A DNA stretch of 64,000 nt from contig CP136069.1 of NCBI GenBank assembly GCA_032622095.1, positions 126,189,450 through 126,253,449 on the forward strand, in the 5' to 3' direction. The position numbers were made by a program, and so were the translations under genes. Below are positions 9,631 to 56,920 of the stretch, piece by piece. Every line of letters starts with the position of its first letter. The first letter of the stretch is position 1. The stretch is from Siphonodentalium dalli (Eukaryota; Mollusca; Scaphopoda; Gadilida; Siphonodentaliidae). A model generated the notes under the pieces. The model made no database searches. It had not been told where the DNA came from and worked only from the letters and a program-made list of their open reading frames with translations.

Positions 9631-10753
9631 CCTTTATGACAAATCAAATAGCGCTAATAAACTATACGTACTTCAGGCCTAGAAAAATCAGGCCAACTAC
9701 ATTTAAAATAGGCATACTATGCCGATCTAAATTATTACGCGTTTCCTGATGAGATTCCGCGTTATCGCTAGTATACTATAGTGAAAAAGTGAATCGAAAC
9801 ATATGCTCAATTTAAATTATGACCATCCGGGCAATGTAGGAACATGGGATACAGACCACTAGTCTGTTGGTGATTGTTGAGTATATTTCACAATCAAAAA
9901 TAAAAAAAATTGTTGAGTATATTTCACAATCAAAAATTCAAAACATATAAAATGTCGACTTATTTAATTAAATCGCCTGTCCCTGATGAGTAGTCGGCGA
10001 ATAAAAATAGACACGAAACACTAGCTTATAGTGACTATCCAAATTCATAGCATAGTGTCGGGCACCATGGTACATACGCTACCTCCAGTCAATGGCTTTC
10101 GGTTGGATGTACATACACCATCTTATATACAAACTGGACATTCAATGTGTCAGCCCTAGTAAAGCGCTGTTGTAAAGACAGGTCAAGCCATTCTAGGTTG
10201 CATATAATATGCAAATACATAACAATTTCTGCATCTAAAATGCAACAAATAGGCATAAACTATGCTGGTTTAAACTATGACTGTCACATTACTAACTCAT
10301 TTGACTCAAAGTGCAAAACTTGGGTGTGATACGACCGACTGCTCTAATGAAATAAGCAGCACGATGGAATCTATAAACTCCGAGCTCAGAATACTCATTA
10401 AAGTGGCATATCATATGCCGAATTATAAAATTGGCACATATCGTGCATGCCCAAAAATATTGGGTGCTTCTGGCCTAGAAAAATCAGGCCAACTACATTT
10501 AAAATAGGCATACTATGCCGATCTAAATTATTACGCGTTTCCTGATGAGATTCCGCGTTATCGCTAGTATACTATAGTGAAAAAATGAATCTAAACATAT
10601 GCTCAATTTAAAATATGACCATCCGGGCAATGTAGGAACATGGGACACAGACCACTAGTATGTTGGTAATTGTTGGGTATATTTCACAATCAAAAATTAG
10701 AAAATATGTTTTCCTTTATGACAAATCAAATAGCGCTAATAAACTATACGTAC
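9631..10753. mobile_element. Interspersed 0.5-kb element, partial copy plus full copy, between 41-bp direct repeats
   Basis: A full copy spans about 10141-10700 and a 3'-only copy about 9676-9940. Both end with CTAGTATACTATAGTG, GGAACATGGG and TATATTTCACAATCAAAAAT. A third full copy lies at 26041-26541 inside the Academ-like transposon. The whole block is flanked by a perfect 41-bp direct repeat (9631-9671 and 10713-10753, starting CCTTTATGACAAATC), far longer than a normal target duplication. This suggests unequal exchange or tandem insertion. No protein is encoded. Confidence 0.7.
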
Positions 10754-18589: not shown

Positions 18590-19375
18590 TATCGGGCTTG
18601 TGCTCAAAACGTATATATATTGTGCGAAGGTACACATATAATCCCAAATAAGTGTTCCTTTAACTTTGACATTCCAAAACTCACGGAAATTATTGATAAA
18701 ACTGATTAGTATTTGAAGAAAATTCAACACACTATTTGTGATAGTTTCAAGGTTGACCATGTGTCGTGTTTCAGAAGAGATATATATAACGATGAAAAAC
18801 CATCAGGTAAGAACAAATTGAGGGTGTATAGAGAAATAATAAGTGATTACCGATTGGAGCCATATTTGGACATAGTAAAAAATATCGAAGTAAGAAAGAT
18901 CTTCAGCAAATTGCGGATTAGCAATCATACTCTAGAAATTGAAAAAGGGCGCCATAAACAACCGAAGATTCCTGTAGACAAGAGAATATGCAGAAAGTGT
19001 GGATTGGAAACGGAAACCGAGGAACATTTTATTTTAAAATGTCCTATTTACAAAAGCATTCGTCTCCGTTTCTTTGACGAAATAGATAAAGTAAATCACA
19101 AGTTTATTAATATGACTGATGCCCAAAAATTCATTTTCATACTGCGAAATGACAAAACAGAAACGTGCAATATCATCTGTAACATGGTCCGTCTCTTTTT
19201 CCACAAAAGGTCTGAAACACCAGATTTTCAACAACAAACATGAAATTTTTTCCATTTTAATTCTGATTACAATTGTGTATACTTATTGTATCATATATAT
19301 ATTTATTGTTATTTATGTTGTGGCATCGGCCCCGTGTGGGTGTAATTGTCAATAAACTTATCTTATCTAAACTTA
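18590..19375 (+). pseudogene. LINE 3' end (non-LTR retrotransposon C-terminus)
   Basis: A 176-residue open segment (18713-19243) with an upstream in-family piece (NKCSFNFDIPKLTEIIDKTD, about 18640-18712, ended by a TAG). It reads GKNKLRVYREIISDYRLEPY, then FSKLRISNHTLEIEKGRHK, then CRKCGLETETEEHFILKCPIY. This is the C-terminal end of a non-LTR retrotransposon ORF2, with the Cys/His knuckle C..C......EHF...CP. The 3' tail runs to CAATAAACTTATCTTATC, a short-repeat terminus with a polyadenylation-like AATAAA. The reverse transcriptase proper is absent (5' truncation). It is the least damaged LINE piece in the window. Confidence 0.75.
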
Positions 19376-20888: not shown

Positions 20889-21034
20889 GATAGAACAGCA
20901 TGAGTGTCTGGATTGTGACGAAATTATCGCACGAGATTTGTTGGTGGAGCGATACATCGAGAGGTAACGCGTTCCGCCAACAAATCGAGTGCGATAATTC
21001 GTCAAAATCCAGACACCCATGCTGTTCTATTTTC
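20889..21034. repeat. Imperfect 145-bp hairpin
   Basis: GAACAGCATGAGTGTCTGGA at the left pairs with its complement ending at about 21029. Further paired blocks include ATTATCGCACGAGATTTGTT. The loop is about 30 bases. It is similar in size to the hairpins at 12.4 and 17.5 kb but unrelated in sequence. Confidence 0.72.
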
Positions 21035-22290: not shown

Positions 22291-22311
22291 CCAGTGCCGG
22301 GAGTAGCGTAC

Positions 22312-22444
22312 TAGTCCAGGCACATTATGCGTGAATGGGGAAAAGTAAGGAAATAAATCCCGGAAAGCTGATTTTTTTATATTATTTTGGCCATAACATC
22401 GCGGATGCGCCACGAAAAGTCCCCTAAAATCCGAGTTGAGCTTT
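22312..22444 (+). repeat. Left terminal inverted repeat of the Academ-like element
   Basis: About 133 bp that matches, with gaps, the reverse complement of 30054-30177. The strongest blocks are at 22312-22327, 22353-22369 and 22414-22444. Similarity may continue weakly outward to about 22292. Confidence 0.78.
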
Positions 22445-23404
22445 CGGAGTTAACCAAAATAAATCGTTGTGACTATCATGGAAATAATTGGATGCTGTGA
22501 CAATTTATCAGACTAAACATATACAGTTGACACTTAATATTGTTCAATACAAAATTCCCCAACCATAGATACTAGTTTAAAGGGGAACTTCGAATGAATT
22601 TCGCACTTTTGGATATGAAATATCATTATAACCCCAAAATATGCCGTTTTTTCAGGCAAACTGTCCTATTTAATGTCGGATTTCTCGCGCATCTCAAAAC
22701 ACCGAGATGAGAAATATGTTTTATAAACTGCACAGACATTACTTCTTCACAACAGTATGTGACATTAGCGACTACGCATATCATAAGTGGTCAATACTTG
22801 TAAAATCATAACCCTACCCCCTAAACTGGTTCTCATCGACATAATCACCTTTCGCTATTCTACATTCCTTAATCGAAATTGGGGTTCTGTCTTTGACAAC
22901 TTCGTAATGGAGTTTTTCTGGTGTTGTTATAAACACTAATATAAACACAATATCCATAAATGAACTGCAATTAATCAACGCTCTTTATTGAAGATGTTAA
23001 TGGTCGCATAATCGCATAACGCTCTTTATTCTGCTGCCAATATAATAAAACGCGTACACCTTATCAGTTGGCTGTCTGCTCTCTTTGTATATTGTCAATA
23101 ATTTATCTCATTGTGATCAACTCTCTTGCGAAAGCTTATTTAAATTGTTGTTGGCTTTTGTTTTTTATATTCATATGCCGATAATCGACTCCTGTTGATA
23201 CCTTACGGTGACAACGAAGCAGGGGCGATTTTTCTGGTGTTCTTGTGTTACTATTCAACTCATGCTACGACTCATTTAGTTCTGATACGTTCACACTAAT
23301 TAAATACTGGTATACTGAACAATATTGAATAGGTTTTGAGATAGATATCAGTTTTAGGTCATCAAGTCTTTGCGTCAGGAAATAAAGCAAAGAACTCCTT
23401 TCTT
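22445..23404. other. 5' non-coding part of the transposon
   Basis: This lies between the left inverted repeat and the first codon. It contains two copies of AACGCTCTTTATT (about 22979 and 23026) and GTTTAAAGGGGAACTTCGAA near 22575. It may hold the promoter; nothing more definite is visible. Confidence 0.4.
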
Positions 23405-24858
23405 ATGAAAACAGATATGGAGAAATGCTGAAAATGTCAGGGGGAACTACAGGACCCTACACAAATAGTGACACTTGGCAGCCGAGGTGTACAAGCGTTG
23501 ATATCTGCGAGCATGAAGCTTTGTGATAATCTGTGTGTGGGGTCAGATGAACCAGTTGATGGTTCCAAAATACACCGAGATTGTTACAAAAATTATACTC
23601 GGCCAAGCACCACAACGAGCAAGATAAGAGCTAGTAGTGATGCCGGAATGATTGATATGATTCCGTGTACATTGCTAAAACTACGCTCTGACCAACCTAC
23701 ATGTACATTCGATTTTAAGATCCACTGTTTACTATGTGGACAAGAAGCCGACAAACAACTGAGAAAAGAAGAAGACAAGTGCATGAGGTCGTGACACTGT
23801 CTTTCATTGATAGCATCAGAATATGGTGTCGAAAACGCAACGACGAGTGGGGTGAAATAGTGCTGACTCGTATTGAGCATGCAATTGATTTAGTTGCAGA
23901 AGAAGGGCGTTACCACCATGATTGCCATCATAATTTCACCAGTAAAACATTCGAGACTCACTCGCGGGGTAGGCCGGTGACAAACAAGAAATCACTCGCA
24001 TTCAATGAGTTGTGCACTTTCATGGAGAATAGCAATGAGTGCCAGTTTTCTCTGAGTGAATTAGCAGAAACTTTTGAAACATATTTGGGCGATGAAGTCG
24101 GTTACACCATAAGATATCTGAAGGTAAAGTTAATGGAGCATTTTGGGAGAAGAATCTCTATCACAAACTTGAGATCCCTTAAAAATGTGGTGACATTCAG
24201 GGAGTCATCGGACAGAATACTGTACGATTCGTGGTACACGAGTAAATGTTCCACTGAAACTGATGAACGCATGCGTATTGTCAAGAAAGCGGCTGCTATA
24301 GTTCGCGATGATATTCGGTCAACCATATACGATTGTGATGTGTACCCAAAACCAGACTATTTATCTGTGTCGACTGAGTTACTACCTGATACATGCACTC
24401 CAAGCATTTTTGCAGGGTGTCATAGCTCCACCACGGCGTCGGGCAAAGGATGAGATAGCCAGTCAGAGCAACCAGAGACACGTCACATCAATAGCTCATT
24501 CTGTGATAAGTGCATGCCGAAAACGGTCTTTTGTCTCGCCATTGCTGTTGTCAATTGCAGTCTATATACACCGAAAATATGCATCGAGGGAAATAATTGA
24601 CATTTTAAATTGGCTTATGTTTTCTTCGAGCTACCGAGAAGTTCAGCAATATATATCGTCAATTATGCTTCACAAGGGACCATCGCCCAGACTGGCCAAA
24701 TTCACACAATTTGTTTTCGATAATGCAGACTGTAATGTACGCACAATAGATGGCAACAATACATTCCATAGTATGTGGGAATTGCCTGTATTACCCCGGC
24801 TGGCTCTCCCAAAGAAGTGTCAATTAAACGATTGACTGGCAATCTTGGTAATGTTGGT
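23405..24858 (+). pseudogene. Academ-like transposon protein, N-terminal part (broken)
   Basis: The first ATG in the family-like frame is at 23405. The reading is MKTDMEKC, an in-frame TGA at 23429, then KCQGELQDPTQIVTLGSRGV; the stop falls inside a CxxC pair. Zinc-binding-like motifs follow: IHRDCYKNYTR, CTFDFKIHCLLCGQEAD and GRYHHDCHHNF. Frameshifts near 23790, 24400 and 24775 join three frames, the last containing RKRSFVSPLLLSIAVYIHRK and PRLAKFTQFVFDNADCNV. The segment ends ITPAGSPKEVSIKRLTGNLG just before an insertion at about 24859. The role of this part in the family is unknown; DNA binding by the Cys/His motifs is inferred. Confidence 0.75.
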
Positions 24859-26540
24859 CTACTCTAGCTCTGGAAAGACAATCATTTCCAACTAGCAATG
24901 TGTGTGCTCTGTATATAACATATATTATACAAAACGAAATAGCAAAATGTATTCAACATACACGGAAAATAAATATACTCTACATGTATATGTAACATTT
25001 CAAGGACCCGCTTACCACCGGGTTTGCGCCAGCCTTGGTGTTTGGAAATTCTAAACGAATAAACTTACAGCAATTAGAAGATTGAAATCTTCACGTGATT
25101 ACACACGATAAATAGTAATAAAACTAATTGTACATGGTAATGTACTGTGACATTATTGTCTCGAAGTATAAACTCTTCATCCACAAACCTGAAAATTCCA
25201 AACTGAAATGGCCTGAAAAATTGGTCTACTCTAGCTCTGGAAAGACAATCATTGCCAACTAGCAATGCGTGTGCTCTGTATATACATGAGGGCCTACTGA
25301 TACTAAAATTGAATTCATCCATTTATTTGGGAAATTCAATGGGTACCATGCCAGACTTTCCTGTAAGACATATGGGGCCCACTAATTTCTTATGATATTA
25401 TGCTCTGTCTTGCTTAGTTATATACACATGCGAGCCTACTAGCCTGCACCATTATCTCAAACCATATATATGAGAAGAGTGGTGTGTTCTATGCTTGATC
25501 ACGCTAATATGGATATATATATACAATGTATATGCTCGATGTGTCAAAACATCTAAAAACTAAACTATGGAACTGTTGGGCCTATTCCCCAAAATAACAA
25601 CATAAAATCTTCCACAAACAAATTTGAAATCTCTGTAATATATTCTCAAAAAACAGAGGCTATACTTGCCCTGGAATTATTCCCAGTTCACCCTGGCAGA
25701 TTATGCAATGTAAACACCGTTGCAAGCAAATCACAAAGTGATTAATTACCACTGGAACTCCAACAGAGTAAAAGTGTCAAATTTGACATTCCAGAATCGT
25801 TAACATTGATGAGCGCTGAATTAAAACAAACGCGCCGATTTATACTGACACAACAGTTATACCATAATGAGATCACACCATTGAAGCACATCGTGAATAC
25901 ATGATTAATTATCGGCTCGGACAGTAGCGGTATCAAATCTCGCAAAATCAAAGCTTCATGCCGTGCATGTGCGAATTGCTCATTATCTAGCAAGTTTGTC
26001 GTACTCAGTGCATAAATGCTGGAGCTTTCATCAGTGTTTCACACTCAATGTGTCGACCCTAGAAAGCGCTGCCTAACAGGCAGGTCAAGCTGATCTAGGT
26101 TGCATATAATATGCAAATTATAAAATAATTAATACGTACATCACTGACTCAAAGTGCAAAACTTGGAAGTGATACGATCAACTGCTCTCGTAAAATTAGC
26201 AGCACAATGGAATCACTAAAATTCCGTGCTCAGAATTGCTAATTAAAGTGGCATATAATACGCTGAGATATAAAATTATCACACACTGGGTACTACCACA
26301 GTAATGGCACTACCGGCCTCAACAAATTAGGCCAATCACATTTAAAATAGGCATATATTATGCCAAGATATTTAAACGTGTTTCCTGACGAGATTCCGCG
26401 TTATCGCTAGTATACTATAGTGAAAAAGTGAGTCGAAACATATACTCAATTTAAAATATGACCATCCGGGAAATGTAGGAACATGGGACACAGACCACTA
26501 ATCTGTTGGTGATTGTTGAGTATATTTCACAATCAAAAAT
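24859..26540. mobile_element. Composite insertion splitting the transposon ORF
   Basis: The family-like protein reading stops at about 24858 and resumes at about 26541 with KYIPLKSYNRPTQSGLD, leaving about 1.68 kb of foreign non-coding DNA. Its right third (26041-26541) is a full copy of the 0.5-kb element also seen at 10.1-10.7 kb. Its left part contains a direct repeat (CTACTCTAGCTCTGGAAAGA at about 24860 and 25225). This is therefore at least two nested repeats. Confidence 0.7.
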
Positions 26541-28530
26541 TCAAAAATATATTCCCCTGAAAAGTTACAACAGACCCACACAATCAGGTTTGGATCTGAT
26601 CGTGATGAAAGATCTACTTCATCTGGGTGAATCGGTTCCCAAAACACTGAAGCATGCCGAGTCTGTCGATTCCCTCTGGTCGCTGGGCTATGTGCTTGGA
26701 GTCCCCTCTTGTCCTTCGTGGTCTGGTTATATGCATGTTGTGACCAAAGAAGAACATTATGAGACAAGTGACATTGAAATATTGCCCTTCATAAATTTCG
26801 ATCCGTCAAACGTCAGTACCATATACACAGCACTCATGTTCGCGCTAACCGAATGTGAAAAACAAGGACTAAACGTTTGCCCAGTGACTTTTGATCAGCC
26901 GCTATATATCAAGGCGGTTGAGATAGTAACATCCTCTGATGAGTTTACAAAAGTCTGTGTGATGCTTGGAGGATTCCATATGATTATGTCTTATTTGGGG
27001 GCAGTGGGCTCTATTATGGATGGAAGTGGTCTTGATGAACTTTGGGCCACTGTTTATGCTGGAGGTTCAATCCATCATATGATTAGTGGCCATGCATACT
27101 CCAGGGATGTCCGTGCTCATATGCTAACCAAAGTTGCTATGACTAGACATCTCTTTGAAGAAAGTCGCGTGCTTGATAACGTGGACTGTGCCACTTTGAA
27201 AGCAACATGTGGCGATCTCGTCGCAGGTAATTGCACAACAGCGAAAGCTGTCATTCAAACTGACGTCATCAGTTTGTTAGATCTCCTTGATGGCCTGCTC
27301 CGCGATGCCGCGGATGGACGGACCGGGAAATTGTGGGCGCAGTATCTCAAACAAATCAGTCTTCTACAATTGTTCCTGAGAGCAGAGCGCACTGGAGACT
27401 GGGCACACCATACTTATTGTGTAAGACTGATGATACCAATTTACCATGCTGGTGGTCATTTTGCATACGCTAAGTCTGCCCATCTCTACCTCCAACAGAT
27501 GGAAGATCTCCCCCGAACAATGCCCGTGGACGACTTCAAGGCGATCACGGAGAAGGGATTCTCCACTATCAGAAGATCTGATAAGTTCTGGGATGGGATT
27601 TATTCCGACCAAACCACAGAACAGTGCCTTATGTGGATGTTCAAGATACCTGGCGGTCTCACACGTGGCAGGGAAATAACGGAGAGCACTATTGCGAAAT
27701 AGGTTCACGCCCTTCCCCTCTGTCTGCCGATATGCAATGCTCTTGAAAACTTTGTTCAAGTCCACGCTGGCCACAGTGACCAACACCGGGACCTTCGCAA
27801 GAGCGCTCAAGCAAATGACATCAGTGATATTAACAAATTCCTCAACCGGTTGAGAGCGCATTCTCCGTTCGGCAATAGAGACCCACAGTTAGTCTCATTG
27901 TCATCTGGCATTGTGGCAGACAAATCAGTCAACTGTGACCAGGTTGTTACAGTTGGTAATGTGTGCGTATTAAAGGTTGTAGGGAAAGCATTCAGCAACA
28001 TCAAACTGCGTCGGGCCGACACTGTCAAATCAATCGCATCAATGGCCAATTCTATCAAAGTACGTGGAGATGAAGTGGTAATCGATCCCACGATACTGTT
28101 CAGCCGCATCACATGTGTGATTCAGTCCCAGTCCGAAATGGAGGGATATCTAAAGTATGAGCTTGCACCAAAACCGCCGGCACTGTTTGATTCTGGTGGA
28201 ATGAGAAAGACACAGAAGAGCGTCTTTGGTAAATTACTCAAGTAATATGCCACTGAACGGAAATACCTTCCCGGAAGCCCTGTTTTTGTCATAGATGGTG
28301 GCTTTTTGTTGAGAGCAGTCGTTTGGCCCAAGCATTCATCATATGGAGATATCTGCACCTCATATTCAAATTATATAATGAAACATGTTGGATCCTATGC
28401 CATTGCTGTATTTGATGGCTATGAATGTGATATGTTAACAAAGGGTGTGGAGCAAGCACGCAGAGCTAAGGGTAGATATTCCGCAGATATCAACATCTCG
28501 CTTGACCTGCCAGTAACCACCTCCCAATCT
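26541..28530 (+). pseudogene. Academ-like transposon protein, central part (two in-frame stops)
   Basis: One continuous frame of about 660 codons with only two stops: TAG at 27700 (AK*VHALPLC) and TAA at 28243 (LLK*YATERK). It contains CPVTFDQPLYIKAVEI and, about 30 residues on, MLGGFHMIMSYLGAVGSIM. This DQ...FH arrangement resembles the RNase H-like core of some eukaryotic transposases, but the residue before FH is Gly where related families carry Asp, so catalytic function is uncertain. HMISGHAYSRDVRAHML and VHAGHSDQHRDLRK follow. The end begins the nuclease domain: VFVIDGGFLLRAVVW (about 28280) and AIAVFDGYE (about 28405), two acidic positions of a PIN/FEN fold. A frameshift at about 28530 leads to the next segment. 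Confidence 0.8.
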
Positions 28531-29449
28531 GGCCAATAGTCGGAACAAAACACAACTAATCCGTCTGTTAATGCAGGAATGTTCCCACATCGATGTCCAG
28601 TCGAAACAAGCAAACGCAGATGCTGATGTTCTGATCGCTGAGGTAGCATTGGACTTGGCTCAGAAGGATAAAACCAATGTTGTAGTTCTTGGAACAGACA
28701 CAGACTTACTTGCTATCATAACGTCTCGCTATCACTCAGGCTAGAACATATACATGATGTTCTCTGTCGCACCCAAAGCCCTCTTCTCAGTCAGAGAAAT
28801 TTCGATCAAGTTGGGTAAGTCAAAGGGAAATGTGTTGCTGGCACATGCTATCAGCGGTTGTGATACAACTTCGGCACTCTTTCGTCTAGGAAAAAAGAAA
28901 GTCTTCAACATGATGGTCTCTGAAATTGCTGGAGATTTACAAAACTACATTGACTCTTTCACGGCACATGACAGCACAAATAAAGAAATTGCCTCGTCGG
29001 GGGAACGAATTATAATGGTGTTATACGGAGCGAGAAAGTTCGCTTCCCCCGACCATCACCGATACGTTGCTTATAAGCGTTATGTAGCCAAAACTAAGCT
29101 GAGTAAGTGCATTCAATTTGCTTCTCTTCCACCAACCAGTTGTGCAGCACATCAGCATGCCTTCCGAGCATACCTACAGATTCAGGAATGGTTAGGGTAC
29201 TCGCTGTTTTCAACAGATTGGGGCTGGTGCATGAGCAATGGCGTTTTTAGACCAACTGCAACAACACAGCCCTTCGCGCCTGAAAATCTCTTGAATTTGA
29301 TCAGTTGTGGGTGTAAAAGCGGTTGCAGTAAGAGATGTGGGTGCAAGAAAGCAGACTTGTCGTGCTCCGGGTTGTGCAGGTGTAATTTGGATTCTTGTAG
29401 CAATCACAGACTCACAGATCCAACCGACACTTCTGAAATTGACGAATAA
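28531..29449 (+). pseudogene. Academ-like transposon protein, XPG-like nuclease end plus CXC domain
   Basis: The nuclease continues: NADADVLIAEVALD (about 28613), VVVLGTDTDLLAII (about 28680) and AISGCDTTSALF (about 28847). In order these match the acidic motifs of FEN1/XPG nucleases (the paired-acid helix, the D.D strand and the GCD turn). A TAG at 28742 interrupts between the last two (YHSG*NIYMM). The C-terminus (about 29304-29410) reads CGCKSGCSKRCGCKKADLSC then CRCNLDSCSNH, a nine-cysteine CXC/tesmin-TSO1-like or Cys8-type zinc module. The ORF ends naturally at TAA 29447-29449. XPG-type nucleases cleave branched DNA; a role in processing transposition intermediates is inference. Confidence 0.85.
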
Positions 29450-30053
29450 CCATGTAGATATTTGTTTGATTGGACATCCTTGAATATTCACTTTTCAGTG
29501 TTTCGGATCTCGTCTGTTTGCTGATATTCAATATGTTTTGTCAGCATCGTCGTCGTTGGACACATCGGAACATGTTATCAGTCCTGCTGTGGTCTTCGTA
29601 TGGGCAGCTTTTCTGACATTTTTGTTATGTGGTCTTTTTAGGCTTTCAGACATTCGACGGCATGGTGCAAATTTATGGGGTAGGGTTAAGTTTTCGGTCG
29701 TAAAATTATCAGAGTTGTGACTTTTCGGAATTAACCTCTGTTCCAGTAGAAGGGTTCATATTTCAACTCATTGCCATCTCATTATCTTTACTCACTCTCT
29801 TTTGTGTGACAAATTATGAATCGTCATGCAATTCCTGTGCTCTCTTCGGTAATAATGTCATCACACTTACGGAATATGAGTGGTAGTAAGCTCAAACATC
29901 AATTTCACATATCTAGCGACACCTGCACCACGATAGGAGGCGTGTAATTGTGAAGATTGAGTACCTAAATTAGTATACATATGACTGTATTCGCATTGGC
30001 TTGATGGAATTGCGTCAGAATTTGAACCATTCCGAAAAATCAAGATATCTCAA
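29450..30053. other. 3' non-coding part of the transposon
   Basis: This lies between the stop codon and the right inverted repeat. CTTTTCGGAATTAACC at about 29720 resembles CTTTCGGAGTTAACC just inside the left inverted repeat (about 22441) in direct orientation and may be a subterminal binding motif. Confidence 0.4.
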
Positions 30054-30177
30054 AAAGCTTAACTCGGATTCTAGGGGACTTTTGCCAAGTTGTTCATAAA
30101 CATGTTCTTATTAATCCCTGAAAAATTCAGCTTTCCGGGATTTTTTGCACTAGTGAAACCTAATGTGCCTGGACTAT
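30054..30177 (-). repeat. Right terminal inverted repeat of the Academ-like element
   Basis: The reverse complement matches 22312-22444 in three conserved blocks with similar spacing (see left repeat). Local open frames here are incidental. Confidence 0.78.
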
Positions 30178-30197
30178 ACGGTTTTTCTCCTCAACTG

Positions 30198-31984
30198 AGA
30201 TACTCAGAACAGTTGACTGCTGTGTTTATTATATTTTCTATACCAGTTTGCTACGACCCAGACAACAATGAAACACACGGTTAGACCTAATGCGTGTTTA
30301 AATCGATACATCACCAGCCATTTCTGTTAAAATAGGGCGCAAGTATACCGAATGACGCAAAGATTGACGGCATGACGCAGTGCTGAGAGTAGGATAACAA
30401 GAGAGTAGGATAACATCTTGAGAGTAGGATAACATCTTGAGAGTAGGATAACATGTTCTGTCTTCTGGGAGTGGGGATGTGATTTATAATTTATAATTTG
30501 ACGTAAAAAGTTGATTAAAATATAATAAAGGCTGAATAATATCATTTAATGCCTGAAATGATTGGAATTGTTGCTTGAGGTAGCTTTTTAAATCCGCCAA
30601 CTCAATATCTACACAGCTGGGCTACACACACTAGTAATATAATGTAACCGACCTGGTGATGTCCCCAATATATATAGTCACGAGTATGGTCATATCGTAC
30701 TCAGAACTGATGCAACATGTTAACATAGTAGAAAACTAATTGATATAATTCCAATATCGTAACGGTGCCTAATTTATCCTTGATAAATATGTTGATTGGA
30801 AAACATTTGCCTCACACATTTTTTCCGACCTCGAAACAACAAAGCGCCCCGTCCCTCTGTCTGGACTTTTTTTTGCAGATCCCCGGTCAATAATTGTTGG
30901 GAATCTGTTGACGGAAAGCGGAGAAAATCAATTTCGAAGTTGAGTACCCATTCGACAAAATGTCAGGTTTCATTTTAAATAAGTATAGACATTTCAAGAA
31001 CGTTCATTTGAAACTAACAAGTTTTGGTTGTTCTGCCATAAGAATATTCTTGTGAAGACTGGGGAATATAGAACATGAAAGAAAATAAATTAACAATTGA
31101 TTCAGAAAAGTATGGCTATTTTAACTGCAGAGCTTAGTAACAAGAAACGTATGTACAACGTTGCTCGGTTGTGCATCTGTCTGTGTTGTAGATACCAACG
31201 TCATAACAATAATATGATAATATGCAATGCATATATAGAACGACCCCGACATAATAGTAAGAAGAATGACAATGGAAAGGATCATGTATATGGTCGTGGA
31301 ACTATATGCCAATCGTTTTGGACGCCAGTGGACTTCGATAAGTACATTATGCCCTAATAGTAACCTCATCGGGCCGAATTGGTATCACCTCTGTGTGCAA
31401 TTTATCTCACAATGAAATGGTCAAATCACGGAATCGGCAGTGCACCAGCGGGTGATTATGAAATTAGCAACTTCAGTTTTTCCGAACAACTCCTATGTGA
31501 TTTAGGCCTATAAATTAGTTTAATTTTGGCCAATTTCGTTGCTTAGCTCAACGAAAACCAGCGAAGACGTCATGACATGGTCCATGACGTCATTTGCGTC
31601 ATTTGGTTTTGTGGGCCATAATCCAGACACATTTGGTCTCCGCTGAAGACACTGATTTCACATCACTACACTAGACATCATGAAATATACACATACACAC
31701 ATCTATAGAGGCTCTATCAGCACCGCGTATAATCGCTTTTGTTATAAATTCGGAAACAGCTTATTTAATGTATATTTGTCTTTAATAAGCCTTTTCTATT
31801 TCCTGCGTGTATCGATCTTTTTTAGTCGCCAGTACGCAAATGAATGCTTTATTGCAAATACACAAATCAATCAGTAACACGCATAACACATATACATTTT
31901 ATATTCAACATGTACACAATAAATATGGGACCCCCTCCCTACACACGTGGGGTCGGTTTGTTTGGTTTTCTTTGTTCATTGAGT
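30198..31984. other. Unassigned stretch with a short minisatellite
   Basis: No gene is supportable. It contains the 19-bp minisatellite below and a CRE-like palindromic pair near 31567-31595 (GACGTCATGACATGGTCCAT then GACGTCA). Short frames at 31097-31369 overlap on opposite strands and show no domain. Confidence 0.45.
30383..30455. repeat. Minisatellite, 19-bp unit, about four copies
   Basis: The unit GAGAGTAGGATAACATCTT repeats head to tail; the first copy is shortened and the last runs into ATGTTC. Confidence 0.88.
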
Positions 31985-32565
31985 GCAGCGCGGTGTCGGT
32001 GTATCGCAGTTCAATTGCGCTTGAGTGCAGCGCAACGTTGCAAAATCGCAGTGCAATTGCGCTTGGGTGCAGCGCAATGTATCCGCACCGAAGTGCAATT
32101 GCGCTTGAGCGCAGCACAATGTTTCCGCGTCGCAGTGCAATTGCGCTTGTGTCCAGCGAAATGTCGCCGGTCGCAGTGCAATTGCGCTTGAGTGCAGCGC
32201 AATGTCTTCGCAGTACAATTGCGCTTGAGTGCAGCGCAATGTCTCCGTGCAATTGCGCTTGAGTGCAGCGAAATGTCGCCGCGTCGCAGTGCAACTGCGC
32301 TTGAGTGCAGCGCAATGTTTTCGCGTCGCAGTGCAATTGCGCTTGAGTGCAGCGCAATGTCTCCGCGTCGCAGTGCAATTGCACTTGAGTGCAGCGAAAT
32401 ATCGCCGCATCGCAGTGTAATTGCGCTTCAGTGCAGCGCAATGTCTACCACCGCAGTGTAATTGCGCTTGAGTGCAGCGCAATGTCTCCGCGTCGCAGTG
32501 CAATTGCGCTTGAGTGCAGCGCAATGTCTCCGCGTCGCAGCGCAATTGCGCTTGAATGCAGATGC
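31985..32565. repeat. 42-bp minisatellite, about 14 copies
   Basis: The unit reads GCGCTTGAGTGCAGCGCAAT then GTCTCCGCGTCGCAGTGCAA then TT. Later copies are nearly identical and the first few are more diverged; some have short deletions. The GC-rich unit contrasts with its AT-rich surroundings. Because 42 is a multiple of three and the unit lacks stops in several frames, open frames up to 189 codons appear on both strands (rich in Cys-Thr-Ala-Leu on the minus strand); these are periodicity artefacts. Degenerate sequence continues to about 32690. Confidence 0.92.
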
Positions 32566-33312: not shown

Positions 33313-36300
33313 CGAGGGGGCAGCGGCTATTCGCCATCGGATGGCAAATAGCGATTCTACCGATATGCGCTATTTGCCATCCGATGGTATTTTAAATAAA
33401 AGAAAACATATCATATCATCACAATACGCTATTATAACGAGGATTCCTACCGCCTTCGTGATCATTAGGCCCAGTTGACCGTCGGTTGACCACCTACAGA
33501 TATCATGGGGGGATGGCAAATAAGAAATCGACAAAATTTGAAGGAAATTTCGTATAGTTTGAACATTTAGTGGCACAAGCTGTCGCTATATGGCCACATA
33601 ATCATCATTTGTACCCGCCTTACTGAAAACCCGGACCAGTTGACCGTCGGTTGACCACCTACAGATATCATGGGGGATGGCAAATAAGAAATCGACAAAT
33701 TTTGAAGGAAATTTCGTATAGTTTGAACATTTAGTGGCACAAGCTGTCGCTATATGGCCACATAATCACCATTTGTACCCGCCTTACTGAAAACCCGGAC
33801 CAGTTGACCGTCGGTTGACCACCCACATATATCCTGGGGGGATGGCAAATAAGAAATCGACAAATTTTGAAGGAAATTTCGTATAGTTTGAACATTTAGT
33901 GGCACAAGCTGTCGCTATATGGCCACCTAATCATCATTTGTACCCGCCTTACTGAAAACCCGGACCAGTTGACCGTCGGTTGACCACCCACAGATATCCT
34001 GGGGAGATGGCAAATAAGGAATCGACAAATTTTGAAGGAAATTTCGTATAGTTTGAACATTTAGTGGCACAAGCTGTCGCTATATGGCCACATAATCATC
34101 ATTTGTACCCGCCTTACTGAAAACCCGGACCAGTTGACCGTCGGTTGACCACCTACAGATATCATGGGGGGATGGCAAATAAGAAATCAACAAATTTTGA
34201 AGGAAATTTCGTATAGTTTGAACATTTAGTGGCACAAGCTGTCGCTATATGACCACATAATCATCATTTGTACCCGCCTTACTGAAAACCCGGACCAGTT
34301 GACCGTCGGTTGACCACCTACAGATATCATGGGGGGATGGCAAATAAGAAATCGGCAATTTTTTAAGGAAATTTCGTATAGTTTGAACATTTAGTGGCAC
34401 AAGCTGTCGCTATATGGCTACATAATCATCATTTGTACCCGCCTTACTGAAAGCCCGGACCAGTTGACCGTCGGTTGACCACCCACAGATATCCTGGGGG
34501 GATGACAAATAAGAAATCGACAAATTTTGAAGGAAATTTCGTATAGTTTGAACATTTAGTGGCACAAGCTGTCGCTATATGGCCACATAATCATCATTTG
34601 TACCCGCCTTACTGAAAACCCGGACCAGTTGACCGTCGGTTGACCACCCACAGATATCCTGGGGGATGGCAAATAAGGAATTGACAACTTTTGAAGGAAA
34701 TTTCGTATAGTTTGAACATTTAGTGGCACAAGCTGTCGCTATATGGCCACATAATCATCATTTGTACCCGCCTTACTGAAAACCCGGACCAGTTGACCGT
34801 CGGTTGACCACCTACAGATATCATGGGGGGATGGCAAATAAGAAATCGACAAATTTTGAAGGAAATTTCGTATAGTTTGAACATTTAGTGGCACAAGCTG
34901 TCGCTATATGGCCACATAATCATCATTTGTACCCGCCTTACTGAAAACCCGGACCAGTTGACCGTCGGTTGACCACCTACATATATCATGGGGGGATGGC
35001 AAATAAGAAATCGACAAATTTTGAAGGAAATTTCGTATAGTTTGAACATTTAGTGGCACAGGTTGTCGCTATATGGCCACATAATCATCATTTGTACCCG
35101 CCTTACTGAAAACCACCTACAGATATCATGGGGGGCACAAATGATGATTATGTGGCCATATAGCGACAGCTTGTGCCACAAAATGTTCAAACTATACGAA
35201 ATTTCCTTCAAAATTTGTCGATTTCTTATTTGCCATCCCCCCAGGATATCTGTGGGTGGTCAACCGACGGTCAACTGGTCCGGATTTTCAGTAAGGCGGG
35301 TACAAATGGTGATTATGTGGCCATATAGCGACAGCTTGTGTCACTAAATGTTCAAACTATACGAAATTTCCTTCAAAATTTGTCGATTTCTTATTTGCCA
35401 TCCCCCCATGATATCTGTAGGTGGTCAACCGACGGTCAACTGGTCCGGGTTTTCAGTAAGTCGGGTACAAATGATGATTATGTGGCCATATAGCGACAGC
35501 TTGTGCCACTAAATGTTCAAACTATACGAAATTTCCTTCAAAATTTGTCGATTTCTTATTTGCCATCCCCCCATGATATCTGTAGGTGGTCAACCGACGG
35601 TCAACTGGTCCGGGTTTTCAGTAAGGCGGGTACAAATGATGATTATGTGGCCATATAGCGACAGCTTGTGCCACTAAATGTTCAAACTATACGAAATTTC
35701 CTTCAAAATTTGTCGATTTCTTATTTGCCATCCCCCAGGATATCTGTGGGTGGTCAACCGACGGTCAACTGGTCCGGGTTTTCAGTACGGCGGGTACAAA
35801 TGATGATTATGTGGCCATATAGCGACAGTTTGTGCCACTAAATGTTCAAACTATACGAAATTTCCTTCAAAATTTGTTGATTTCTTATTTGCCATCCCCC
35901 CAGGATATCTGTGGGTGGTCAACCGACGGTCAACTGGTCCGGGTTTTCAGTAAGGCGGGTACAAATGGTGATTATGTGGCCATATAGCGACAGCTTGTGC
36001 CACTAAATGTTCAAACTATACGAAATTTCCTTCAAAATTTGTCGATTTCTTATTTGCCATCCCCCCATGATATATGTAGGTGGTCAACCGACGGTCAACT
36101 GGTCCGGGTTTTCCGTAAGGCGGGTACAAATGATGATTATGTGGCCATATAGCGACAGCTTGTGCCACTAAATGTTCAAACTATACGAAATTTCCTTCAA
36201 AATTTGTCGATTTCTTATTTGCCATCTCCCCATGATATCTGTAGGTGGTCAACCGACGGTCAACTGGTCCGGGTTTTCAGTAAGGCGGGTACAAATGATG

Positions 36301-37407
36301 ATTATGTGGCCATATAGCGACAGCTTGTGCCACTAAATGTTCAAACTATACGAAATTTCCTTCAAAATTTGTCGATTTCTTATTTGCCATCCCCCCATGA
36401 TATATGTAGGTGGTCAACCGACGGTCAACTGGTCCGGGTTTTCAGTAAGGCGGGTACAAATGATGATTATGTGGCCATATAGCGACAGCTTGTGCCACTA
36501 AATGTTCAAACTATACGAAATTTCCTTCAAAATTTGTCGATTTCTTATTTGCCATCCCCCCATGATATCTGTAGGTGGTCAACCGACGGTCAACTGGTCC
36601 GGGTTTTCAGTAAGGCGGGTACAAATGATGATTATGTGGCCATATAGCGACAGCTTGTGCCACTAAATGTTCAAACTATACGAAATTTCCTTCAAAATTT
36701 GTCGATTTCTTATTTGCCATCCCCCATGATATCTGTAGGTGGTCAACCGACGGTCAACTGGTCCGGGTTTTCAGTAAGGCGGGTACAAATGATGATTATG
36801 TGGCCATATAGCGACAGCTTGTGCCACTAAATGTTCAAACTATACGAAATTTCCTTCAAAATTTGTCGATTCCTTATTTGCCATCCCCCCAGGATATCTG
36901 TGGGTGGTCAACCGACGGTCAACTGGTCCGGGTTTTCAGTAAGGCGGGTACAAATGATGATTATGTGGCCATATAGCGACAGCTTGTGCCACTAAATGTT
37001 CAAACTATACGAAATTTCCATCAAAATTTGTCGATTTCTTATTTGCCATCCCCCCAGGATATCTGTGGGTGGTCAACCGACGGTCAACTGGTCCGGGTTT
37101 TCAGTAAGGCGGGTACAAATGGTGATTATGTGGCCATATAGCGACAGCTTGTGCCACTAAATGTTCAAACTATACGAAATTTCCTTCAAAATTTGTCGAT
37201 TTCTTATTTGCCATCCCCCCATGATATATGTAGGTGGTCAACCGACGGTCAACTGGGCCTAATGATCACGAAGGCGGTAGGAATCCTCGTTATAATAGCG
37301 TATTGTGATGATATGATATGTTTTCTTTTATTTAAGATACCATCGGATGGCAAATAGCGCATATCGGTAGAATCGCTATTTGCCATCCGATGGCGAATAG
37401 TCACTTC
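33313..37407. mobile_element. 4.1-kb foldback element made of 165-bp satellite units
   Basis: A giant inverted repeat. Outer arms of about 150 bp (CTATTCGCCATCGGATGGCA inward to CTTCGTGATCATTAGGCCCA) are near-perfect complements at 33328-33475 and 37250-37400. Weaker similarity (CCGAGGG) extends outward. Inside, about ten head-to-tail units of about 165 bp (GACCAGTTGACCGTCGGTTG start) run one way to about 35115. About thirteen units run the other way from about 35126. The junction is only some tens of bases. Units are very similar, implying recent amplification or homogenisation. There is no coding capacity. It matches the architecture of foldback transposons. Confidence 0.88.
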
Positions 37408-37969: not shown

Positions 37970-40890
37970 CCATGGGGGTGTGATTTCAGTCCCTGTTAGC
38001 ACAAATAAAGGGTCAAATGTGCAATTTACACATTCATTTTCATCCCATTTGATGAGTTCCAACATGAAATGATCACCTCTTTAGCAAGAATATTGCCTAA
38101 ATTGACAAAGATGGTTGCATTCTGGCTCTGTGCTCATGCCCAGGGGACCCATGGTGTGTGATTTCATTGATTTTTACCACACATGAAGGGTTAAATATGC
38201 AAATTACACTTTTTCTGACAGAATTGTGGCCAACAAAGGCACTATAAGATGCTTCCATTGCCATGAATCAGAGATTTTAGGGCTCACTAAGTGTCTGTTT
38301 AGCCATTTTCATCCCATTTGATGAGTTCCAACATGAAATGATCACCTCTTTAGCAAGAATATTGCCTAAATTGACAAAGATAGTTGCATTCAGGCTCTGT
38401 GCTCATGCCCAGGGGACCCATGGTGTGTGATTTCATTGATTTTTACCACACATGAAGGGTTAAATATGCAAATTACACTTTTTTTGACAGAATTGTGGCC
38501 AACAAAGGCACTATAAGATGCTTCCATTGCCATGAATCAGAGATTTTAGGGCTCACTAAGTGTCTGTTTAGCCATTTTCATCCCATTTGATGAGTTCCAA
38601 CATGAAATGATCACCTCTTTAGCAAGAATATTGCCTAAATTGACAAAGATGGTTGCATTCAGGCTCTGTGCGCATGCACAGGGGACCCATGGTGTGTGAT
38701 TTCAATGATTTTTGCCACACATGAAGGGTTAAATATGCAAATTACACTTTTTCTGACAGAATTGTGGCCAACAAAGGCACTATAAGATGCTTCCATTGCC
38801 ATCAATCAGAGATTTTAGGGCTCACTAAGTGTCTGTTTAGCCATTTTCATCCCATTTGATGAGTTCCAACATGAAATGATCACCTCTTTAGCAAGAATAT
38901 TGCCTAAATTGACAAAGATGGTTGCATTCAGGCTCTGTGCTCATGCCCAGGGGACCCATGGTGTGTGATTTCATTGATTTTTAACACACATGAAGGGTTA
39001 AATATGCAAATTACACTTTTTCTGACAGAATTGTGGCCAACAAAGGCACTATAAGATGCTCCCATTGCCATGAATCAGAGATTTTAGGGCTCACTAAGTG
39101 TCTGTTTAGCCATTTTCATCCCATTTGATGAGTTCCAACATGAAATGATCACCTCTTTAGAAAGAATATTGCCTAAATTGACAAAGATGGTTGCATTCGG
39201 GCTCTGTGCTCATGCCCAGGGTACCCATGGTGTGTGATTTCATTGATTTTTACCACACATGAAGGGTTAAATATGCAAATTACACTTTTTCTGACAGAAT
39301 TGTGGCTAACAAAGGCACTATAAGATGCTTCCATTGGCATGAATCAGAGATTTTAGGGCTCACTAAGTGTCTGTTTAGCCATTTTCATCCCCTTTGATGA
39401 GTTCCAACATGAAATGATCACCTCTTTAGCAAGAATATTGCCTAAATTGACAAAGATAGTTGCATTCAGGCTCTGTGCTCATGCCCAGGGGACCCATGGT
39501 GTGTGATTTCATTGATTTTTACCACACATGAAGGGTTAAATATGCAAATTACACTTTTTTTGACAGAATTGTGGCCAACAAAGGCACTATAAGATGCTTC
39601 CATTGCCATGAATCAGAGATTTTAGGGCTCACTAAGTGTCTGTTTAGCCATTTTCATCCCATTTGATGAGTTCCAACATGAAATGATCACCTCTTTAGCA
39701 AGAATATTGCCTAAATTGACAAAGATGGTTGCATTCAGGCTCTGTGCGCATGCACAGGGGACCCATGGTGTGTGATTTCATTGATTTTTGCCACACATGA
39801 AGGGTTAAATATGCAAATTACACTTTTTCTGACAGAATTGTGGCCAACAAAGGCACTATAAGATGCTTCCATTGCCATCAATCAGAGATTTTAGGGCTCA
39901 CTAAGTGTCTGTTTAGCCATTTTCATCCCATTTGATGAGTTCCAACATGAAATGATCACCTCTTTAGCAAGAATATTGCCTAAATTGACAAAGATGGTTG
40001 CATTCAGGCTCTGTGCTCATGCCCAGGGGACCCATGGTGTGTGATTTCATTGATTTTTAACACACATGAAGGGTTAAATATGCAAATTACACTTTTTCTG
40101 ACAGAATTGTGGCCAACAAAGGCACTATAAGATGCTCCCATTGCCATGAATCAGAGATTTTAGGGCTCACTAAGTGTCTGTTTAGCCATTTTCATCCCAT
40201 TTGATGAGTTCCAACATGAAATGATCACCTCTTTAGAAAGAATATTGCCTAAATTGACAAAGATGGTTGCATTCGGGCTCTGTGCTCATGCCCAGGGTAC
40301 CCATGGTGTGTGATTTCATTGATTTTTACCACACATGAAGGGTTAAATATGCAAATTACACTTTTTCTGACAGAATTGTGGCTAACAAAGGCACTATAAG
40401 ATGCTTCCATTGGCATGAATCAGAGATTTTAGGGCTCACTAAGTGTCTGTTTAGCCATTTTCATCCCCTTTGATGAGTTCCAACATGAAATGATCACCTC
40501 TTTAGCAAGAATATTGCCTAAATTGACAAAGATGGTTGCATTCAGGCTCTGTGCTCATGCCCAGGGGACCCATGGTGTGTGATTTCATTGATTTTTACCA
40601 CACATGAAGGGTTAAATATGCAAATTACACTTTTTTTGACAGAATTGTGGCCAACAAAGGCACTATAAGATGCTTCCATTGCCATGAATGAGAGATTTTA
40701 GGGCTCACTAAGTGTCTGTTTAGCCATTTTCATCCCATTTGATGAGTTCCAACATGAAATGATCACCTCTTTAGCAAGAATATTGCCTAAATTGACAAAG
40801 ATGGTTGCATTCAGGCTCTGTACTCATGCCTAGGGGACCCATGGTGTGTGATTTCATTGATTTTTGACACACATGAGACATGAGGGCTCA
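37970..40890. repeat. 269-bp satellite with a four-monomer higher-order repeat
   Basis: About eleven head-to-tail monomers of 269 bp beginning CATCCCATTTGATGAGTTCC and containing GGGACCCATGGTGTGTGATT. The first monomer is diverged and the last truncated. Diagnostic variants recur every fourth monomer: CGCATGCACAGG at 38671 and 39747, TTAACACACATG at about 38983 and 40059, CAGGGTACCCATGG at about 39215 and 40291. The resulting 1,076-bp period is a higher-order repeat. No coding frame. Confidence 0.9.
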
Positions 40891-42094: not shown

Positions 42095-45000
42095 AATATA
42101 CATGTATACTTAGGGATTTTTGTCTGTTTGTCTGTTAACTATGGCCGGGAAAGGCGGATTTCAACGAAATTTGATACCTAAGGATACTTTTAGTCGGGGA
42201 GCCAATAAGGTCCACCTGCACCCCCCCCCCCCCCCGATGATTACAAATAACCTTATTTTTATTGTTCCCTATGGTATCCAGATAAAGAATCCGGAATTCA
42301 CCGAAAAATAAAGGTGGCCCTACTGGGTGCTAGAGCCATTTGAATCCAAGATGGCCGCCATTTCCTCTAACTCCGACCAGATGTATTTAATCGTTGTAAT
42401 AGATCGGTTGTTAGCAAAAGACACAGACAAAATGTATGCCATTTTGTTGGTATGATGTCCTTCAAAATGACGGCAAATAATTTCGAAAAAAATTCAAAAT
42501 GGCCGCCGAAAAATGACGTCATATGCACGAAGATAGGAAATTTAATTAATATTTCACCATATCTTCCATTTTTCTTCACATTAATCATTAGTAAATGGCA
42601 ATGTTTTTGAGACAGTCGTCAAGCGTGATATTATAGCGTCATTTTAAGACATTTGCCATTGACGAGCGTTCAGTAATAGATACAGAAAGAGGATTTGAAA
42701 AATAGGGGTGAAATTTTCGATTTTTTTTGCAAGACGATTTTGATGTATTTAATCGTTGTAATAGATCGGTTGTTAGCAAAAGACACAGACAAAAAGATGT
42801 ATGCCATTTTGTTGGTATGATGTCCTTCTTCAAAATGACGGCAAATAATTTCGAAAAAAATTCAAAATGGCCGCCGAAAAATGACGTCATATGCACGAAA
42901 ATAGGAAATTTAATTAATATCTCACCATATCTTCCATTTTTCTTCACATTAATCCTAGTAAATGGCAATGTATTTGAGACAGGCATCAAGCGTGATATTA
43001 TAGCGTCATTTTAAGACATTTGCTATTGACGAGGGTTCAGTAATAGATACAGAAAGAGGATTTGAAAAAGAGGGGTGAAATTTTCGATTTTTTTGCAAGA
43101 CGGTCTTGATAGTCATTTTAACGACAAACCACACAGGATGTTAATATAGAATGTCAACAACTATGTGCTTTATTTTATTGGACGGATGTTTTACTTCAAT
43201 GGGAATGAAATTGGTGTAGAACATTTCCAAAATGGCCGCCGAAAATATGAAAAATGGTAAATATTGTCCCAGGGTGTCCTGCAATGGCTTACAAGTTGTG
43301 GTTGATATATACAATTTGCTAATCTGTATTATATACATTGAATACTTACATGTCTGATGCACCATGGATCATTGTTTCTATTGTCACCACTGACATCACC
43401 ATAAATATTGGATATTTCTCTCACAAACTTGACATAAATATCGGCAAAAATTGAACAATTGGACAATTGGACAATTTTTAAAAGTAAAATGCAACTATCA
43501 TTGGTATCAAAGGTATTTATTGCTTTGGTCTATCTTAAATGTTTCACACTACGGTGTTTATAGACCAAATTGCTCAAGATGGCTTCCAAAATGGCAACCA
43601 AATTTGTAAAAAGTTATTTTTTTACATATATCCCGAACATTATTCTCTGCGTTATCCGACAAGGTATTAAATTGTGACTCACTTGGTTATTATACGTGTT
43701 AGTTAATTAGCTGACAACCACGTTCTATTATGTTTGTTCCAGTTCCGTATGGGGCATGACAAATTCATTTTAAAGTTGCAGTATGAAATTTGGCGGAGAA
43801 CCTCTTTTGTGATTCTTGTCATATTATTGAAAGGAAATGGGCAGAACTTTGAAACGGAACTGAGATGAACCATAATATGTGGCTATTCTGGTCCATTATG
43901 ATAAAACATATCAACTGGATATAGGGTGAATGCCAGGGAGTTACTATATGATCATAGGTAAGGTGAATATGTATACAGGGAGTTATTGTATGGTCAATGG
44001 TGAGACGAGTACATGTATGTATACAATGAGTGACTGTATGATCATAAATGTAATGAAATAGGAAATTAAATAGGAAATTTAATTAATATCTCACCATATC
44101 TTCCATTTTTCTTCACATTAATCCTAGTAAATGGCAATGTATTTGAGACAGGCATCAAGCGTCATATTATAGCGTCATTTTAAGACATTTGCAATTGACG
44201 AGGGTTCAGTAATAGATACAGAAAGAGGATTTGAAAAAGAGGGGTGAAATTTTCGATTTTTTTGCAAGACGGTCTTGATAGTCATTTTAACGACAAACCA
44301 CACAGGATGTTAATATAGAATGTCAACAACTATGTGCTTTATTTTATTGGACGGATGTTTTACCTCAATGGGAATGAAATTGGTGTAGAACATTTCCAAA
44401 ATGGCCGCCGAAAATATGAAAAATGGTAAATATTGTCCCAGGGTGTCCTGCAATGGCTTACAAGTTGTGGTTGATATATACAATTTGCTAATCTGTATTA
44501 TATACATTGAATACTTACATGTCTGATGCACCATGGATCATTGTTTCTATTGTCACCACTGACATCACCAGAAATATTGGATATTTCTCTCACAAACTTG
44601 ACATAAATATCGGCAAAAATTGGACAATTGGACAATTGGACAATTTTTAAAAGTAAAATGCAACTATCATTGGTATCAAAGGTATTTATTGTTTTGGTCT
44701 ATCTTAAATGTGTCACACTACGGTGTTTATAGACCAAATTGCTCAAGATGGCTTCCAAAATGGCAACCAAATTTGTAAAAAGTTATTTTTTTACATATAT
44801 CCCGAACATTATTCTCTGCGTTATCCGACAAGGTATTAAATTGTGACTCACTTGGTTATTATACGTGTTAGTTAATTAGCTGACAACCACGTTCTATTAT
44901 GTTTGTTCCAGTTCCGTATGGGGCATGACAAATTCATTTTAAAGTTGCAGTATGAAATTTGGCGGAGAACCTCTTTTGTGATTCTTGTCATATTATTGAA

Positions 45001-48000
45001 AGGAAATGGGCAGAACTTTGAAACGGAACTGAGATGAACCATAATATGTGGCTATTCTGGTCCATTATGATAAAACATATCAACTGGATATAGGGTGAAT
45101 GTCAGGGAGTTACTATATGATCATAGGTAAGGTGAATATGTATACAGGGAGTTATTGTATGGTCAATGGTGAGACGAGTACATGTATGTATACAATGAGT
45201 GACTGTATGATCATAAATGTAATGAATAGCTATGCAGGGAGTGACTAAATTGTCATGTGTCAGGTGTATGAGTATACCCGGTGTTCCTGCTTGGTGACTC
45301 GTTGCGGTATGGTCATGTGTAGGTTATACGGGCATACGCATGTGTTGCTATATGGTCATGGGCGAGGGGTATGTGTATATAGCGAGCGGCTATATGGCCA
45401 TGGATGATGTGCATATGCATACATGGATTGAATATACTGACATGGCTGGGGAGTATTAGTATATCTTGAGTGGCTATTCTGCTATGGTGTGACAAATAGG
45501 GATACAGGGAGTGACATGGCCAAGGGTGAGGTGAATATATATACAATGATTGACCATGATCATGTATGAATGTTTTGAATAGGTAGACATGGTGTGACTA
45601 TATGGCCATAGGTCAGATGAAGGAGTATACCAGGTGCCACGGATGAGGGTATGTGTATGAAGCGAGTGGCTATATGACCATTGGTGAGGTGGATATGTAT
45701 ACCCGAGGTGACTATATGGTCATTGTTGCGGTGTTGATGTAAATATTGAATGTCTATTTGACCATGTGTGTGTGGAGAATAGGTATACATGGGATGACCG
45801 TATGGCCAATGGTGAGATGAATGGGTATACAAGGAGTGACTCTATGGTTATGGGTCATCTTTTGGATTATACCCGGTGTACTTGCATTGTGACGCATGGC
45901 TGTATGGCCATCCACGGTCATGGGTCAGGTGTACGTTTATACAGTTGGTCACTATATTGTTATGTATGTGGTGTTTATGCATATATGGAATGACTGTGTG
46001 GTAATGGGTGGCTATCGCTTTTCACGTTTAAAGTTCCCCATGTACACAAACACTATCAAGGTGGAGAACTCTTTGACATGACCTCTCTATTGATTAACAT
46101 ATCCTTGAGTTATTGTGGAAAGCGATAGCCACCCAAATTATACATGTACAACGCATCCCATGACCTCATATGTACATACACACCACACAAATGACAATAT
46201 AGTCACCCACTCTATACACGTACACCTGGCCATACAGCCTTATTTGGCTATACCGGTACATGCCACAAATGACGATACAGCCATGAATCACCATGCATGA
46301 ACACCAGGTATACTCCTACACCTGACCATATAGTCACTCTATGTATACATATTATTTCACATTCACGATCATACAGTCACTCATTTTATACCTATTCATC
46401 TCACCATGGACCATACAGCCACTACATGTATATCTATTCGCCATACCCATGACCATAGAGTCAATTCAGATATACATATACACCTCACCCACCAATGGTG
46501 AGCCCTTCCAAATATACCAATACCCGCACACACGACCACTCATAAGTCTCATACTTGCATATACACCTCACACATGACAATTAATCAACTCACTGTATAC
46601 TCATACACGCCATCCATGATCATTCATCTACACCATATACACCACCGATGATAATACATCCACAACATATATAAATATACGACCCACCCGTTACCAAAAT
46701 GGCACTCCCTATATAGCCACACGCTCGTCAATAACCATAAAGCTTATTCCAGGTATGCATATAACTTCAATCTTGACCACAGGCATACCATGTTCACCTA
46801 TACACATTACCCATAACCATAAAATCACACCCTATTTATCTACGCAATCCATCCATGATCATACAGACAGACCAAAACAATAAATACCTTTGATACCAAT
46901 GATAGTTGCATTTTACTTAAAAAAATTGTCCAACCCTGAAAAGTTAATTTTTGCCGATATTTATGTCAAGTTTGTGAGAGAAATATCCAATATTTCTGGT
47001 GATGTCAGTGGTGACAATAGAAACATTGATCCATGGTGCATCAGACATATAAGTATTCAATGTATATAATACAGATTAGCCAATTGTATATATCAACCAC
47101 AACTTGTAAGCCATTGCAGGACACCCTGGGACAATATTTACCATTTTTCATATTTTCGGCGGCCATTTTGGAAATGTTCTACACCAATTTCATTCCCATT
47201 GAATTAAAACATCCGTCCAATAAAATAAAGCACATAGTTGTTGACATTCTATATTAACATCCTGTGTGGTTTGTCGTTAAAATGATTATCAAGACCGTCT
47301 TGCAAAAAAATCGAAAATTTCACCCCTCTTTTTCAAATCCTCTTTCTGTATCTATTACTGAACCCTCGTCAATGGCAAATGTCTTAAAATGACGCTATAA
47401 TATCACGCTTGACGACTGTCTCAAAAACATTGCCATTTACTAATGATTAATGTGAAGAAAAATGGAAGATATGGTGAAATATTAATTAAATTTCCTATTT
47501 TCGTGCATATGACGTCATTTTTCGGCGGCCATTTTCATTTTTTTTCGAAATTATTTGCCGTCATTTTGAAGAAGGACATCATACCAACAAAATGGCATAC
47601 ATTTTGTCTGTGTCTTTTGCTAACAACCGATCTATTACAACGATTAAATACATCTGGTCGGAGTTAGAGGAAATGGCGGCCATCTTGGATTCAAATGGCT
47701 CTAGCACCCAGTAGGGCCACCTTTATTTTTCGGTGAATTCCGGATTCTTTATCTGGATACCATAGGGAACAATAAAAATAAGGTTATTTGTAATCATCAG
47801 GGGGGTGCAGGTGGACCTTATTGTCTCCCCGACTATTTTGTCCGGAAAGTGTTTTGGACAGGTCAAATCGTGACCCCGACCTGACCTTGATCTTCAAAAT
47901 GGTCAATTCAAGGTCAAATCGGTTAAAACTGGCGGATTTAGACGAAATTTGATAGATAGGGGCTGTATTGGACGGGTCAAATCGTAACCTCGACCTGACC

Positions 48001-56916: not shown

Positions 56917-56920
56917 TAGA

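Follow-up and report, generated by a model that had tools for sequence, protein, structure and literature searches.

A degenerate DNA transposon with inverted ends and a putative XPG-like nuclease domain, probably from the AcademX lineage

Academ transposons and the element under study

In the X lineage of Academ (AcademX), the closest described system, the encoded nuclease is presumably of the XPG type. The passage of PMC10045372 on the two lineages names just a 'nuclease'; it gives a target site duplication (TSD) of 3 or 4 bp for AcademX and a longer one, of 9 or 10 bp, for AcademH, and ties this difference to the encoded nuclease and helicase. Academ is counted among the superfamilies with a DDD/E transposase in a passage of PMC9587614, a RecQ helicase in Academ is mentioned in part of PMC3627910, and the superfamily is also treated in sections of PMC8905726, PMC8290104 and PMC9783078. 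In bivalves Academ has been amplified, and the mean length of the curated elements is 5,565 bp, as stated in a section of PMC10294476. A literature search retrieved no paper joining an XPG nuclease to transposons, a CXC domain to XPG, or a Tesmin TSO1-like CXC domain to a transposon.

In this study, we report the analysis of a unit of 7,865 bp that is bounded by inverted repeats and located at 22312 to 30176 of a 64-kb stretch of DNA (the window). We consider it, with reasonable though not full confidence, to be a degenerate copy, no longer mobile, of a large DNA transposon of the autonomous type that most likely belongs to the AcademX lineage. As described, AcademX is a DNA element bearing terminal inverted repeats (TIRs), with a duplication of 3-4 bp and a nuclease; the unit reported here is alike in having 3-bp flanks and a nuclease-like domain, and differs in being a single broken copy with a secondary insert, the comparison being one of description and not of sequence. 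The positions of all features are collected in Table 1.

Table 1. Features of the element, in positions of the window
Feature	Position	Strand	Basis or remark
Left copy of 3-bp TSD, TAC	22309..22311	.	same TAC at both tips
Left terminal inverted repeat	22312..22452	+	end alignment, identical tip
N-terminal coding piece, frame 0	23465..23791	+	HCLLCG at about 23723-23740; no Pfam family
Second coding piece, frame 2	23734..24450	+	YHHDC at about 23911-23925; no Pfam match over cut-off
Third coding piece, frame 0	24308..24832	+	by eye, protein reading from about 24440; no Pfam family
Non-coding gap, interpreted as one or more secondary insertions	24854..26553	.	window-internal repeats
Central coding piece, frame 2	26560..28530	+	two internal stops; putative XPG-like domain begins at its end
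FVIDGG	28285-28302	+	end of central piece
AVFDG	28405-28419	+	end of central piece
C-terminal coding piece, frame 0	28541..29449	+	one internal stop; later acidic motifs
DADVL	28619-28633	+	C-terminal piece
LGTDTDLL	28688-28711	+	C-terminal piece
SGCDTTSA	28853-28876	+	C-terminal piece
Nine-cysteine CXC-like motif, CxCx3Cx3CxCx6Cx3CxCx4C	29306..29398	+	spacing pattern
Right terminal inverted repeat	30046..30176	-	end alignment, identical tip
Right copy of 3-bp TSD, TAC	30177..30179	.	same TAC at both tips

Element ends and broken coding region

The original prediction had described inverted repeats flanking a reading frame between 22292 and 30197. Paired ends beyond chance were found, and their limits were corrected to 22312 and 30176. 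The tip of the element, TAGTCCAGGCACATTA, is 16 bp long and has two exact, identical occurrences in the window, at 22312-22327 on the plus strand and at 30161-30176 on the minus strand; at 3 mismatches two more sites were located in the window, where on average 0.47 sites with 3 or fewer mismatches would be expected by chance. Across 152 aligned columns, gaps included, the inverted repeats are about 68% identical. Alignment of the 200-bp ends gave a score of 70, which was reached by none of 2000 dinucleotide-shuffled pairs (maximum 37) and by none of 2000 equally spaced end pairs elsewhere in the window (maximum 31); in a looser control, with the element itself left in, the score was reached by 1 of 1000 end pairs. 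Lone inverted ends beyond chance were not seen elsewhere in the window, where the best score was 29 and the null maximum 32 (3000 trials), and no second copy of the element was found within the 64 kb, so that the multi-copy character suggested for proteins of this type was not seen in the window.

The trinucleotide TAC lies directly outside both tips, a 3-bp flank match that would arise by chance about once in 64 cases, and the flanks of 2 bp and of 4-11 bp are not identical. This TAC/TAC pair falls within the duplication length of AcademX (3 or 4 bp), and TIRs are likewise a trait of that lineage; the 9- and 10-bp flanks, which would correspond to the AcademH duplication, differ. Because long coding remnants lie between inverted ends that are themselves flanked by a 3-bp duplication, the unit between 22312 and 30176 is supported as a mobile DNA element.

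Translation of the three forward frames revealed one protein in pieces, which follow each other in frames 0, 2 and 0 and, past a gap, in frames 2 and 0, with the reading ending at 29449. An open reading frame of about 1,400 codons had been predicted; the pieces do total roughly 1,400 codons, but the reading changes frame three times, has three further in-frame stops and is interrupted by a non-coding insert of about 1.7 kb. The in-frame stops are at 27700, 28243 and 28742, and another is located at the last frame change. Between 26560 and 28545 just 3 stops occur in the coding frame, the last of them where the frame changes, as against 37 and 41 in the other two frames, and 500 shuffles of this segment gave a mean of 32.4 and a minimum of 12. 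A stop count so far under that of the shuffles indicates that the reading is real coding sequence. The copy is dead, as its broken reading cannot yield a protein. The intact protein would have had about 1,400 residues, with a zinc-binding N-terminus, a putative central transposase core, a FEN1/XPG-like nuclease and a CXC-like C-terminus.

The non-coding gap carries repeats that are found elsewhere in the window. Its segments 26041-26118 and 26145-26553 match 10138-10216 and 10302-10710 with 82-84% identity, and segment 26309-26547 matches 9670-9908 at 88%, which implies a second repeat family within the element. A direct repeat of 64 bp, its copies 97% identical, was identified towards the left of the insert, at 24854-24917 and 25221-25284. 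The presence of a repeat that also occurs elsewhere in the window favours an insertion over an intron as the origin of the gap of about 1.7 kb. That the gap is instead an intron of the transposon gene would explain why coding picks up again past it and why both halves need joining, but this appears quite unlikely given that the gap holds a repeat occurring twice elsewhere in the window as well as the 64-bp direct repeat, and given that a simple search located neither a GTRAGT donor in 24780-24930 nor a polypyrimidine-YAG acceptor in 26450-26600. The predicted 'intronless' character of the gene is thus favoured by the repeat content of the gap, with a small probability left to the intron. Without the putative insertion the element would be about 6.2 kb long, which is near the 5,565 bp mean of the curated bivalve Academ elements given in a section of PMC10294476.

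Nuclease-like domain and cysteine-rich ends

The five predicted acidic motifs were all found, in the predicted order. In a read-through of 227 residues, the seven-acid scaffold of FEN1/XPG nucleases is whole and ordered, with the acids at residues 12, 52, 120/122, 146/148 and 201; in the FEN1 of M. jannaschii (1a76) they are at 27, 80, 152/154, 173/175 and 224. The successive spacings are therefore 40, 68, 2, 24, 2 and 53 in the element as against 53, 72, 2, 19, 2 and 49 in M. jannaschii FEN1, and the FEN1/XPG (Rad2) nucleases have the same order and approximately the same spacing of the seven acidic positions as the element. The pair E152/E154 of M. jannaschii FEN1 is Glu-x-Glu, whereas the element has Asp-x-Asp. 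A loose pattern of this scaffold was matched by 4 of 5 FEN1 sequences, but by none of 18 bacterial Pol I nucleases and none of 20,000 shuffles; since the pattern was composed after sight of the element sequence, the shuffle count makes the evidence look stronger than it is. The FEN1 test set consisted of M. jannaschii and four chains which we take to be archaeal.

Profile searches were performed with several cuts of the region. The best nuclease match in Pfam was PF02739 (E 0.021, 28541-28930), at 12-15 bits against a cut-off of 34.3, and the E value was 0.077 when the entire last piece was searched, 0.037 with the read-through as query and 0.16 in an initial scan; the weak match sits on the same motif as the acid scaffold. 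A 54-residue cut around the best motif gave no Pfam match, and neither XPG_N nor XPG_I was reported at E up to 10 with HMMER filters on. With custom HMMs, 29 of 2000 shuffles (FEN1) and 83 of 2000 (Pol I) scored at least as high as the element, where 1319-1320 of the 2000 shuffles were scored and the remainder counted as lower, and the element was not clearly separated from shuffles by either the FEN1 HMM or that from bacterial Pol I nucleases. AlphaFold models of two contiguous pieces, from single sequence without alignment, had mean pLDDT values of 33.1 and 32.1. Of the predicted XPG-like nuclease, the motif scaffold is therefore present and a significant profile match, in Pfam or with the custom HMMs, is not; on the order and spacing of its acidic residues, the nuclease domain is likely XPG-like.

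XPG relatives are host repair genes, and a single copy is visible in the window, as would be expected of a FEN1/XPG-related host gene or pseudogene that lies between inverted repeats by chance. This origin is highly improbable, since the tips are identical over 16 bp and adjoin a direct repeat, the coding part stops 0.6 kb inside the right inverted repeat, and sequence searches of PDB at E up to 10 returned either nothing or chance matches (ankyrins and others), with no FEN1, XPG, EXO1 or GEN1 chain among them.

Both cysteine-rich ends that had been predicted were located. The N-terminal Cys/His motifs are present as CxxC and HxxC, with HCLLCG in the first coding piece and YHHDC in the second, and the nine-cysteine C-terminus was found in the last coding piece, where the spacing of its first eight cysteines has one occurrence in the six frames of the 64 kb. 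Nine cysteines in CxC-type spacing are common to this tail and to the CXC/TSO1-type cysteine-rich DNA-binding domains. The loop lengths in the tail are unlike those of the TSO1/tesmin pattern, and a Pfam search of 29297-29446, with filters on and E values up to 10 allowed, returned 0 families and no CXC/TCR profile match. The assignment of a CXC domain consequently holds for the spacing pattern, without a Pfam match, and the tail is referred to here as CXC-like.

Family assignment, proposed mechanism and surrounding sequence

No Pfam family was over its cut-off in any of the coding pieces; 53-BP1_Tudor, with E 0.0093 in one piece, was below its cut-off and was taken as chance. Likewise no helicase family was recognised in the Pfam-scanned pieces of the broken copy, in which nothing else was recognised either. 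Searches of NCBIfam and PHROGs with four proteins gave chance-level matches alone (E 0.026 and 0.15). The plasmid and phage collections were each queried with part of the element only: no relatives were found by tblastn for 26506-27699 against plasmids or 28595-29446 against phages, or by DNA search for 22292-24860 against phages or 26553-30197 against plasmids. Two window proteins were compared with viral contigs, one of which gave a pattern match without a tblastn relative and the other no match. Degenerate DNA patterns, loosened from animal proteins presumed to be of this kind, matched one viral contig whose frames, by eye, were unlike the window protein, and one genome contig within a bacterial gene, presumably that of glutaminyl-tRNA synthetase, which was taken as chance; further patterns of this type had no match in the viral contigs.

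The filing under AcademX, made by TSD length, architecture and presumed relatives and not by measured homology, is probable. The unit could also be a TIR-bearing DNA transposon of another or unnamed superfamily that likewise makes a 3-bp TSD, its XPG-like scaffold being convergent or separately acquired, as the XPG profile support is not significant and the AcademX filing is by description; we regard this as unlikely, since many animal proteins appear to have the same motif order. The nuclease-like scaffold and the 3-bp TSD, taken together, also fit the description of AcademX in the passage of PMC10045372. The earlier assignment to the X lineage of Academ is accordingly compatible with the 3-bp TSD, and short of significant profile support for the nuclease. 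The element probably belongs to an already described transposon group, of which it would be a further example and not a new type.

A mechanism may be proposed for the intact element. The long inverted ends would be bound by the zinc and CXC parts, a DDE-type core located centrally would cut and join the transferred strand with a stagger of 3-4 bp, and the XPG-like domain might trim or cut the non-transferred strand, or a flap left at the ends. No DDE-type catalytic core was detected in the central coding piece, its expected place. It seems very doubtful that the XPG-like domain acts as the sole catalytic nuclease, cutting the long inverted ends in a structure-specific manner (at flaps or junctions) and without a DDE core. 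The role of the nuclease in Academ transposition is a fair question, which one dead copy cannot make testable. The value of this copy lies mostly in annotation: animal proteins of this kind may stand as uncharacterised host proteins in genome listings, and in this copy a protein of that sort is associated with inverted ends and a duplication of 3 bp.

The window is rich in tandem arrays and interspersed repeats, which give it a eukaryotic look, and is probably from an animal; no tRNA or Rfam family was over threshold in it. A 176-codon open frame at 18713-19243 (+) matches zf-RVT (PF13966) weakly, with E 0.012 and a score below its cut-off, and may represent the tail of a LINE reverse transcriptase. 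At 20890-21030 a foldback of about 140 bp, with arms 87-94% complementary, may be a small hairpin element. A 42-bp tandem repeat of about 14 copies (31979-32561) has overlapping open frames on both strands and is a source of spurious ORFs. Two 165-bp satellite arrays in opposite orientation occupy 33471-37256, with a junction around 35.12 kb and units 96-97% alike, and a 269-bp tandem repeat of about 10.6 copies, 97% alike, lies at 38035-40876. An inverted repeat of about 1.5 kb at 55429-56920 is 95.9% identical to its own reverse complement. A direct duplication of about 1.16 kb (42899-44057 and 44068-45226), parts of which are inverted at 46.9-47.7 kb, is 99.3% identical and hence appears recent.
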